64,000 nucleotides of DNA from an uncultured Caulobacterales bacterium. Its GTDB lineage: Bacteria > Pseudomonadota > Alphaproteobacteria > Caulobacterales > Caulobacteraceae. This document shows positions 1 through 4,101 of this stretch, one piece after another (the first letter of the stretch is position 1; each line of letters opens with the position of its first letter). The DNA lies in contig CAISEP010000016.1 of NCBI GenBank assembly GCA_903884425.1, forward strand, positions 248,001 through 312,000. Direction: 5' to 3'. The translations under genes and the position numbers were made by a program. The notes under the pieces were generated by a model that saw nothing but the letters and a program-made list of their open reading frames with translations, was not told the origin of the DNA and searched no databases.

Positions 1-435
1 CTTCTCCACCAGGATGGCGGGGGGGCGGCGGGGTCGCCCGGCCAGGTCGATGCAGGCGGCGAAGACCACCGCGTCCGCCAGCCGGGCCTCTCCCCGAAGG
101 ATGGTCTGGCGGACGGTGAGCTTGGCCCCCCGGAAGGCGTCATAGGTGGTGCGCACCAGCAGGGCATCATCGATCCGCGCGGGCAGCTTGTAGTCCACCT
201 CCACCCGGGTGACGACGAAGGCGGCGGGGTCTTCCCGGTCCAGCAGCAGGCTGTGGCCCACCCCGATGGCCCGGAGGAAGTCCGACCGTCCCCGCTCGAA
301 ATAGCGGACATAGTTGGCGTGATAGACGAGGCCGGTGAAGTCGGTGTCCTCGTAATAGACCCGGATGGGCAGGAAGTGCTCCCGGCCCACGAACCATCCG
401 GCGGTGGGGCTCGTATCCTCGGGCGCGCCGGTCAT
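1..435 (-). CDS. ybgC: YbgC-type acyl-CoA thioesterase (partial, runs off window start)
   Basis: This is a 4-hydroxybenzoyl-CoA thioesterase family hotdog protein of the kind usually found before tolQRAB. The N-terminal part shows the family signature [20 protein letters not shown] at about residues 24-43, which contains the catalytic Asp and the Tyr-His-Asn-Tyr run. The ATG at 435-433 overlaps the ruvB stop as ATGA, so it is translationally coupled to ruvB. The frame stays open for 145 codons to coordinate 1, and the C-terminus lies outside the window. By family knowledge it hydrolyses short acyl-CoA esters; the natural substrate cannot be seen here. A tol-pal cluster beyond the left edge is expected from gene order in relatives. 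Confidence 0.88.
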
Positions 436-1475
436 GCGTCGTCTCCGAACAGGTCGCCGGCCCCGGGCGGCGGGGTGGCTGGCGTGGACGGCATGGGCAA
501 TCCCATGTGCTGATAGGCCAGCGACCCGGCGATGCGGCCCCGGGGCGTGCGCTGGATGAACCCCTGTTGCAGCAGATAGGGCTCGATGACGTCCTCCACC
601 GAATCGCGGGCTTCCGCCAGCGCTGCGGCCAGTGTCTCAGCCCCCACCGGGCCGCCGCCATAGGTTTCAATCAGCGCACGAAGATAGCGACGGTCGAGGC
701 TGTCCAGCCCCTTCTCGTCCACCTCCAGACGGGCCAGCGCCCGGCGGGCGGCGTGCCGGTCGATGGCCGGTGCCGCATCGGCGGCGGCAAAGTCCCGCAC
801 CCGGCGCAGCAGCCGTCCCGCCACCCGCGGCGTGCCCCGGGCCCGGTGGGCGATCTCCTCGGCCCCGTCCGCCGTCAGGGGGGCCCCCATCTTGCGGGCG
901 GCATGGGCCAGCACCTGGCAGAGCTCCTCGGCCGAATAGAACTCCAGCCTAAGGGGAATGCCGAACCGGTCCCGCAGCGGCGTGGCCAGCAGCCCCGCCC
1001 GGGTGGTCGCCGCCACCAGGGTGAAGGGGGCCAGATCGATGCGGACGGAGCGGGCGGAGGGTCCCTCCCCGATGATCAGGTCCAGCACATGGTCCTCCAT
1101 CGCCGGATAGAGGATCTCCTCCACGGCGGGGGGCAGGCGGTGGATCTCGTCGATGAACAGGACGTCGTTGGCCTCGAGATTGGTCAGGATCGCCGCCAGG
1201 TCCCCGGCCTTGGCCAGCACCGGCCCGGCGGTGGCGCGGAAGTTCACCCCCATTTCCCGGGCGACGATCTGGGCCAGCGTGGTCTTGCCCAGCCCCGGCG
1301 GGCCGAACAGCAGGACATGGTCCAGGGGCTCTCCCCGGGCCCGGGCCCCGTCGATGAACACCTTCAGATTGGCCTTGAGCGTCGGCTGGCCGACGAATTC
1401 CATCAGGGTCTGGGGGCGCAGCGCCCGGTCGGCGGTCTCGAACCCCTCCCGCTCGCCGGAGATCAGCCGGGTCAT
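432..1475 (-). CDS. ruvB: Holliday junction branch migration helicase RuvB
   Basis: RuvB is the hexameric AAA+ motor that drives branch migration of Holliday junctions together with RuvA. The 347-residue length is normal. The Walker A motif GPPGLGKT is at residues 58-65, followed by a Walker B ending in FIDEIHRL, a sensor I region (LVAATTRAG) and a C-terminal winged-helix domain ending in TPRGR. The start ATG at 1475 overlaps the ruvA stop by ATGA, and its own stop overlaps the ybgC start. It is the third gene of ruvC-ruvA-ruvB, so SOS-type control upstream of ruvC would extend to it. Confidence 0.98.
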
Positions 1476-2086
1476 CGGCCCACCTCCTGCAGGGCGGCCT
1501 TGATCAGGGCGCTGAGCGCCGGGTCAGGGCCCAGGCGCTGCTCCGCCGTCTCCACCGCCCGGCGGGCCGCGGATTCGGCAATGCCCAGGCCCAGAAGCGC
1601 GGCCACGGCCTCCCCCGACGCCCGCACCACGGGGGACGCGGACGGGGACGGGCCCGCCGCGTCCGGACCGATGGACAGACCGGCGGCCAGGGGCTTGCCC
1701 TTCAGCTCGGTGACGATGCGCTGGGCGAGCTTGGGTCCCACCCCGCTGGCCCGGGCCACGGCGGCCTTGTCGTCGCGGACCACCGCCGCGGCCAGCTCCG
1801 CCGGCGGCAGGATGTCGAGGACGGCCAGCGCCGCCTTGGGCCCCACCCCCTGGATGGCCTGCAGGGAGACGAAGGCCGCGCGATCGGACTTGGACAGGAA
1901 GCCGAACAGGCGGGTGCCGTCCTCCCGGGTCTGGCTCTCGATGTGCAGCACCACCGGCTCGCCCAGGGGCGGCAGGCGGGTGAGGGTGCGGGTGCCGCAG
2001 CGGACCAGATAGCCCACCCCCCCCACATCGATCACGGCGTCGTCCCCCTCCGCATCGACGAACAGGCCGCTGAGGCGTCCGATCAT
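1472..2086 (-). CDS. ruvA: Holliday junction branch migration complex subunit RuvA
   Basis: RuvA is the junction-binding tetramer that loads RuvB. The protein is 204 residues and starts [10 protein letters not shown]. It has an N-terminal OB fold, two helix-hairpin-helix motifs ([12 protein letters not shown] and [12 protein letters not shown]) and a short C-terminal RuvB-binding helical domain after a Pro/Ser-rich linker. The open frame extends far upstream, but this ATG at 2086 overlaps the ruvC stop (ATGA) and matches the family N-terminus. It sits between ruvC and ruvB with 4-bp overlaps on both sides. Confidence 0.97.
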
Positions 2087-2589
2087 GCCGCCCCCCGCAG
2101 GCGCGCGATCCGCAGATGGGCGTGGGCGATGGCCACGGCCAGGGCATCGGCGGCGTCCTCCCCCGGCTCGCCGCAGGTGGGCAGAAGGCGGCGGACCATG
2201 AAGCCCACCTGCCCCTTGTCCGCGGCGCCCGCCCCGACCACGGCCTTCTTCACCAGCCTTGTATTGTACTCCGCCACGGTCAGTCCCGCCCGGGCAGGCG
2301 CGATCAGGGACGCCGCGCGGGCATGGCCCAGCTTCAGGGTGGAGGCGGGGTTCATGTTGACGAACACCTCCTCCACTGCCGCCTCGTCGGGGGCATGTTC
2401 GGCAATCACGGCAGTGATGGCCTCGAACAGGTGCAGCAGCCGCTCGGCGAAGTCCGCGGTCTTCGGCGGCGCGATCTCCCCATGGGCCACATGGCTGAGA
2501 CGCGAGCCCTCGCAGCTGATCACGCCCCAGCCGGTGCGGACCAGTCCCGGATCCAGTCCCAGGATGCGAAGCCGATTCGTGTTCTTCAT
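2083..2589 (-). CDS. ruvC: Crossover junction endodeoxyribonuclease RuvC
   Basis: RuvC is the dimeric resolvase that cuts Holliday junctions. The protein is 168 residues from the ATG at 2589. It shows the RNase H-like acidic residues: Asp in LGLDPG near the N-terminus, Glu in AAVEEVF and the C-terminal DAADALAVA segment. GTG codons in the same frame at 2598 and 2607 would add three or six residues. The ATG is preferred because [15 protein letters not shown] fits the family N-terminus and a GTGGAAC stretch lies just upstream. It is the first gene of the ruvCAB operon. The start codon lies inside a GTTC-N7-GTTC palindrome (see the separate site). Confidence 0.96.
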
Positions 2590-2595
2590 GTGTTC
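2581..2595 (-). promoter_or_regulatory. LexA-type SOS box over the ruvC start codon
   Basis: The + strand reads GTTC-TTCATGT-GTTC, an exact match to the alphaproteobacterial LexA operator GTTC-N7-GTTC (GAAC-N7-GAAC on the ruvC strand). The ruvC ATG lies within the spacer. Repression of ruvC by LexA and induction on DNA damage is the natural inference. The match is seen directly; binding is not shown. Confidence 0.72.
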
Positions 2596-2639
2596 CACAC
2601 TGTCCACTGCCCGGGCCCTCAGGGGAAGCGGCCTTTTCG

Positions 2640-2655
2640 GTTAATGCAGCGTTAA
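2640..2655 (-). promoter_or_regulatory. CtrA-type box upstream of ruvC
   Basis: On the ruvC strand this is TTAA-CGCTGCA-TTAAC, an exact match to the Caulobacter CtrA consensus TTAA-N7-TTAAC. It lies about 51-66 nt upstream of the ruvC ATG, a plausible position at or just upstream of a -35 region. It also lies about 83 nt upstream of the divergent dienelactone hydrolase gene, so either gene could be the target. Exact TTAA pairs are rare in DNA this GC-rich. Confidence 0.55.
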
Positions 2656-2737: not shown

Positions 2738-3418
2738 ATGTCCAGCCTGATCCACCTGACCGCCGCCCATGACGGCTTCCAGTTCTCCGCCCTGCACGCC
2801 CCCGCCCAGGGGACCCGCCGGGGCGGGGTGATCATCATCCAGGAGATCTTCGGCCTGGACCGCTATGTGCACGAGGACGTGGCCCGCTGGTCGGCCCTGG
2901 GCTTCGAGGCCCTGGCCCCCTCCATGTTCGACCGGCAGGAGCCCGGCTACACCGCCGGCCACGACCCCGACGGCTTCCAGACCGGAGTGAAGTACGCCAC
3001 GGCCAACGGCCCGGACAATGCCATGGGCGACATCGCCGCCTGCGTGGCGCACCTGGCCCCCCGGGGACCGGTATTCATCGTCGGCTACTGCTACGGCGGC
3101 ACCATGGCCTGGCTGGCCGCCAGCCGGGTGCCGGGCCTGGCCGCCGCGTCCAGCTATTACGGCGGCGGCGTTGCCGGCATGGCGGGCCTGCCGCTGCAGT
3201 GCCCGGTCATCGTCCATCTCGGGCGCAAGGACGGGCACATTCCCGCCGACGAGGTGAAGGCCAAGGTGGCCGCCGCCCATCCGGAGGTGGCGGTGCACAT
3301 CTATGAGGGCTCCGGCCACGGCTTCAACAATGACGGGGTGGAGGCCCAGGACCCGGCGGATGCCGCCCTGGCCCGGCAGCGGACGCTGGAGCTGTTCCAG
3401 GCCCACGGCGCCGCCTGA
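2738..3418 (+). CDS. Dienelactone hydrolase family protein (first of tandem pair)
   Basis: This is a 226-residue cytoplasmic alpha/beta hydrolase of the dienelactone hydrolase family. The family catalytic residues are visible: Cys118 in GYCYGG, Asp165 in LGRKDG, His194 in GSGHGF and the gating Glu36 in [13 protein letters not shown] ribosome-binding site lies about 8 nt before the ATG. The stop overlaps the start of the next gene (TGATG), a close paralogue, so the pair is probably translated together. No chloroaromatic degradation genes lie nearby, so the true substrate is unknown and carboxymethylenebutenolidase activity should not be assumed. Confidence 0.88.
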
Positions 3419-4101
3419 TGGAGGCGACGGTCCGCCTGACCAGTCCCGTCGACGGCTTCGGCTTCGAGGCCTTCCACGTCACCCCGCCCGAGCAGCGGCG
3501 GGGGGGACTGGTGCTGATCCACGAGATCTTCGGCGTGACCGATCACATCCGCGACCTGGCCCGGGGCTTTGCCGCCGACGGCTACGAGGTGCTGGCGCCC
3601 GCCCTGTTCGACCGCCAGGTCCCGGGCCTCGCCGCCGGCTACGATCCCGAGGGCATCCGAATCGGCCGGGCCTGTTCCGAAGCCGCGCCCTGGGACGAGG
3701 TGGCGCAGGACCTGAGCGCCTGTGTGGCGGCCCTGGCCCCGCCGGTCTTCGCGGTGGGCTATTGCTGGGGCGGGACGGCGGCCTGGCTGGCGGCGGCGCG
3801 GATCGGGGGCGTGGCCGCAGCCTCCGCCTATTACGGCCGCCGCATTCCCGAGTTGATCGACGAGGCCCCCCGGTGCCCGCTGATCTGTCATTTCGGCCGC
3901 ACCGATCCCACCATTCCGCCGGAGACGGTGGCCGCCATCCGCGACCGGTATCCGGACCTGCCCGTGCACGTCTATGAGGCCGGACACGGCTTCGCCTCGG
4001 ACCGGCGGCCGGACTATGTGGAGGACGCGGCGCGGCTGGCGCGGCTCAGGACCCTGCAGCTGTTCCACCGTAATGCCGGCATCCGGTCCGACGACCCCTG
4101 A
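3418..4101 (+). CDS. Dienelactone hydrolase family protein (second of tandem pair)
   Basis: This 227-residue paralogue of the preceding gene has the same layout: Glu36 in LIHEIFG, Cys116 in GYCWGG, Asp163 in FGRTDP and His190 in EAGHGF. Its ATG overlaps the upstream stop by one base. The two proteins align without large gaps (both carry APxxFDRQ near residues 60-66), so they look like an old tandem duplication that has since diverged. The lid region between about residues 67 and 100 differs most, which would be expected to change substrate choice. The gene ends three bases before the convergent cyclophilin gene. Confidence 0.87.

Follow-up and report, generated by a model that had tools for sequence, protein, structure and literature searches.

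The exact TTAA-N7-TTAAC motif upstream of ruvC in the window (the whole stretch of 64,000 nucleotides that was analysed) is best explained as a CtrA box of the ruvCAB promoter, which would bring CtrA input into an SOS-controlled operon; we put the probability of this reading at roughly 0.55. It rests on the exact consensus, a fixed spacing of 60 bp to the LexA box, the retention of both half-sites amid diverged flanks in three genera, the turnover of the neighbouring gene, and the presence of CtrA and LexA genes in the genome. The features of the locus are as follows.

432..1475, minus strand: ruvB (Pfam RuvB_N, AAA_lid_4 and RuvB_C)
1472..2083, minus strand: ruvA (Pfam RuvA_N and RuvA_C)
2083..2589, minus strand: ruvC (Pfam RuvC, 1.5e-42)
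2574..2578, no strand assigned: GANTC (CcrM methylation) site just within ruvC, from the sequence
2581..2595, minus strand: LexA (SOS) box GAAC-N7-GAAC, across the ruvC start codon
2599..2604, minus strand: GACAGT, possible -10 element (GAnnnT in relatives)
2621..2629, minus strand: conserved block GCTTCCCCT, an information peak and possible -35 element
2640..2655, minus strand: predicted CtrA box TTAA-CGCTGCA-TTAAC, exact consensus, which relatives keep at 60 bp from the LexA box
2652-2655 and 2641-2644, minus strand: half-sites of the predicted CtrA box
2738..3418, plus strand: divergent dienelactone hydrolase 1 (Pfam DLH, 7e-35)
3418..4101, plus strand: dienelactone hydrolase 2 (Pfam DLH, 1.2e-36)

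The ruvC strand (minus) at 2640-2655 reads TTAACGCTGCATTAAC, which bears out the exact CtrA box claimed by the sequence-only reading; no second exact TTAA-N7-TTAAC is present in the 64 kb window, and 100 shuffles of the window gave none. Genome-wide (3.58 Mb) the exact pattern, with 20 strand-wise matches at about 12 places, has a rate of about 6e-4 per 100 bp; the reversed control has 5 matches. The LexA box at 2581-2595 is likewise exact, reading GTTCTTCATGTGTTC on the plus strand and GAACACATGAAGAAC on the ruvC strand, and the ruvC ATG (complement of 2587-2589) lies inside it. The CtrA box is located upstream of the LexA box with a gap of 44 bp, close to the 45 bp or so given earlier, and the distance from start to start is 60 bp.

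RuvC was identified first in 100 relatives and later in 390 family genomes; upstream DNA was taken from more than 100, and the ruvC promoters were aligned on the LexA box. An exact LexA box is present in 143 of the 160 distinct Caulobacteraceae ruvC promoters, the ATG falls within the LexA box in 126 of the 160, and a GANTC site follows the box by no more than 25 nt in 136 of 143 promoters. Within the window's genus, TTAA-N7-TTAACC lies exactly 60 bp upstream of the LexA box in four of six genomes, a fifth (G002) has TTTA-N7-TTAAC at 62 bp, and the dyad is lost in the sixth (G005). The second genus (g22) has TTWA-N7-TTAR at exactly 60 bp in 37 of 51 ruvC promoters, most of these copies having TTAG as the second half; any other distance accounts for at most 3 promoters, and those with the dyad at 83-84 bp are insertion variants (about 24 bp) that keep it. 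Exact dyads were found in three genomes of the third genus (g20), at 60, 61 and 62 bp, and one-mismatch dyads at 62 bp in genera g6, g9 and g19. TTWA-N7-TTAR at exactly 60 bp is present in 43 of the 390 genomes, with zero control matches, these dyad counts coming from related genomes and not representing independent events. Many relatives have a degenerate dyad (TTWA-N7-TTAG) or none; among the family genomes compared, the full dyad is absent from Brevundimonas- and Asticcacaulis-like and most Phenylobacterium-like genomes, as from G005. The two halves, whose want of conservation was to count against the box, are thus both kept in three genera, at a constant spacing from the LexA box.

The exact composite TTAAN7TTAA-N38..56-GAACN7GAAC gave 20 matches in 19 of the 390 family genomes (reversed control, 0), and 18 of the 20 lie at the ruvC start (17 genomes, 3 genera). 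The two matches outside ruvC (G361 and G280) were set aside as incidental LexA-like matches; that of G280 is near an integrase-like gene, and the Phenylobacterium-like G361 (L188, about 1500-1590) has a full CtrA box and a LexA-like box upstream of a FlgB/FlgC/FliE-like flagellar basal-body operon. A tighter composite (gap 0-30) has no matches in the window's own genome. Between the window's genus and 22 g22 representatives, identity is 0.64 and 0.57 in the two halves, against near-background values for flank and spacer (0.33 and 0.35, respectively); the diverged flanks argue against simple shared descent of the dyad. A 4+4 mask slid along the region scored best at -60. Information content peaks at both halves (with the last base of the second half conserved in part), at the block from -34 to -27 relative to the LexA box, and at the LexA box with its GANTC. 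The counterpart of the block in g22 is GCTTTTCCT.

Several variants of the upstream element were observed in other lineages. Brevundimonas ruvC loci (L066, L072, L079 and others) have in common a different conserved element of roughly GGTCATTGTYCGTTAACCCTCTTTGGGGCATGA, which includes a single TTAACC-like half-site and precedes the LexA box by about 25-40 bp. Phenylobacterium-like loci (L238, L242, L245, L252 and others) have, in place of the full dyad, a TYAACCCTTCC half-site that precedes the LexA box by about 35 bp. Four g22 loci (L012, L197, L214 and L217) have GANTC inside the dyad spacer (TTTACGACTCGTTAG) at 60 bp, which could place a CcrM methylation site within the CtrA-like box. One contig (L192, G328 contig C75) has a second ruvC promoter with the first codons joined to unrelated sequence, in a genome whose other ruvC is intact; this copy may be a truncated duplicate or an artefact of assembly.

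The box might belong to the divergent dienelactone hydrolase pair, or serve both sides, as the sequence-only reading had allowed. It is nearly symmetric, an exact or one-mismatch copy stands between the two genes in all five same-genus genomes that keep the hydrolase beside ruvC, and in G005 (L008), where the hydrolase has moved away, the box is also gone. However, the divergent hydrolase is the upstream neighbour of ruvC only in the window's genus, and two other genera keep the dyad at the same distance from ruvC without it: in g22 the neighbour is either an M20-like peptidase (divergent) or a nucleoside hydrolase (co-directional), and in g20 either a MATE-like gene (co-directional) or a PAP2-like phosphatase (divergent). 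Some dyad loci thus have no divergent gene at all, the nucleoside hydrolase and MATE-like genes running toward ruvC. The one-mismatch dyads of L020 (g20) and L140 (g9) have a co-directional yebC directly upstream (neighbours other than yebC and the hydrolase were named from sequence, with no profile). The distance from dyad to LexA box is 59-62 bp whatever the upstream neighbour. Within the window's genus the distance from ruvC to the hydrolase ranges over 140-182 bp, whereas dyad and LexA box are 60 bp apart in the four genomes with an exact copy and 62 bp apart in G002. Because the dyad is kept while the upstream neighbour varies, the site appears to belong to ruvC rather than to the hydrolases. 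The ruvC side of the alternative has therefore held and the hydrolase side has lost ground, the dyad persisting where the hydrolases are absent; ownership by the hydrolases is improbable, though the dyad may serve both sides within the window's genus.

As to the factor that reads the site, the genome has genes for a CtrA that is 91% identical to Caulobacter CtrA over residues 1-226 and for a LexA (TIGR00498, 185 bits, over the cut-off), and the LexA motif is enriched genome-wide (68 vs 15). CtrA acts at the ftsZ promoter region and at the origin in C. crescentus. Other exact CtrA boxes of this genome lie at the ftsA-ftsZ junction and in the intergenic region between the ferrochelatase and PPPase genes, which by analogy with Caulobacter is probably the replication origin; the latter region (contig C16, 423603-423647; L045, L047) has two full CtrA boxes 28 bp apart. 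CtrA would thus be the natural reader of the box upstream of ruvC. It is unlikely, but a more serious rival than the hydrolase pair, that TTWA-N7-TTAR is instead the site of another regulator or a portion of the core promoter, the exact CtrA matches having arisen by drift in certain lineages. The TTAG second half of most g22 promoters and the partial conservation of its last base point that way; such copies, and the TTTA-N7-TTAG of the C. crescentus-like genome, could bind CtrA weakly or bind another factor. On the other hand, CtrA sites have just this TTAA core and this spacing of 11 bp from half to half. Exact copies are found repeatedly in three genera, and those of the window's genus have the trailing C. 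Reports moreover describe degenerate full CtrA motifs in C. crescentus, for example TTAT-N7-TCAA (PMC4287350), and a half-site of the form TTAG in the sciP promoter of B. subvibrioides (PMC7987155). A chance AT-rich motif in a GC-rich intergenic region is very improbable: the site is single and its half-sites are short, but shuffling gave none in 100 trials and its position is conserved in 43 genomes with zero control matches. The conservation of the dyad's position led to the rejection of a chance origin.

The second genus is very likely Caulobacter, since the PopZ of one of its members (G326) is identical over 177 residues to what we take to be the C. crescentus sequence. For C. crescentus ruvC (CC3238) the predicted dyad is TTTACCCTCCGTTAG, probably a degenerate form with two mismatches.

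Under the CtrA-box reading, phosphorylated CtrA would bind upstream of the promoter core and increase transcription of ruvCAB in those cell types and phases that have active CtrA. LexA, sitting on the start codon and probably on the transcription start as well, would repress the promoter until its removal upon DNA damage. Activation is the favoured role for CtrA, since the box is placed upstream of, and not over, the probable promoter core. In CtrA-regulated promoters a motif beginning near -35 of the transcription start goes with activation, and one over the -10 element with repression. A sigma-70 consensus scan of the ruvC promoter found no promoter. The GAnnnT element just before the LexA box is weakly conserved (at -9 and -5 relative to the box) and suggests that transcription begins close to the box, giving a message with no leader or almost none; a start there would place the CtrA dyad at about -60 to -46, so that its position relative to the ruvC transcription start may be near -60. 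Full CtrA motifs in C. crescentus mostly begin near -35 of the transcription start (PMC4287350), and with a start some 30 bp farther upstream the dyad would be at this usual position. Joint cell-cycle and DNA-damage control of Holliday junction processing, suggested by the sequence-only reading, would follow from such an arrangement. A wider proposal is advanced tentatively and with less confidence than the CtrA box itself: that a positionally fixed module, made up of the CtrA dyad, a LexA operator 60 bp away on the start codon and an adjacent CcrM site, couples the resolution of Holliday junctions to the cell cycle and the SOS response, and possibly to DNA methylation, in Caulobacter and two related genera, and that dyad quality tunes the basal strength and SOS timing of ruvCAB between species. 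The conserved dyad could set ruvC promoter strength and so link Holliday junction resolution to the state of the chromosome; it is a concrete, mutable element, and the link is directly testable in a model organism.

ruvC is a published SOS gene and GANTC is conserved at ruvC in Caulobacterales (PMC7987155). The C. crescentus ruvC is induced by damage and served as a late SOS gene in reporter assays, and the timing of SOS genes in that organism is attributed to intrinsic promoter strength and partly to sigma factor use (PMC12700426). CtrA at ruvC is a new candidate, predicted from the genomes compared. No CtrA-ruvC link was found in the open literature searched, including papers on the CtrA regulon of Hyphomonas and Alphaproteobacteria, Brucella repair, Caulobacter CcrM and a recent SOS factor; subscription papers or supplements might list one. 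Predicted CtrA and LexA sites also share promoters (lexA, Tad pilus, flagella) in Dinoroseobacter shibae (PMC6473078), although that overlap is in silico, concerns a different alphaproteobacterial order and leaves the ruv genes unmentioned. The locus resembles LexA-controlled Caulobacterales ruvC in its exact GTTC-N7-GTTC operator and GANTC; unlike the reading proposed here, the papers on that system describe no CtrA input (PMC7987155, PMC12700426). With the CtrA-activated promoters of C. crescentus (PMC4287350), described in a text without ruvC, it shares the motif, the half spacing, a cognate CtrA and an intergenic upstream position, but the box here may lie upstream of the usual -35 and is paired with a LexA operator.
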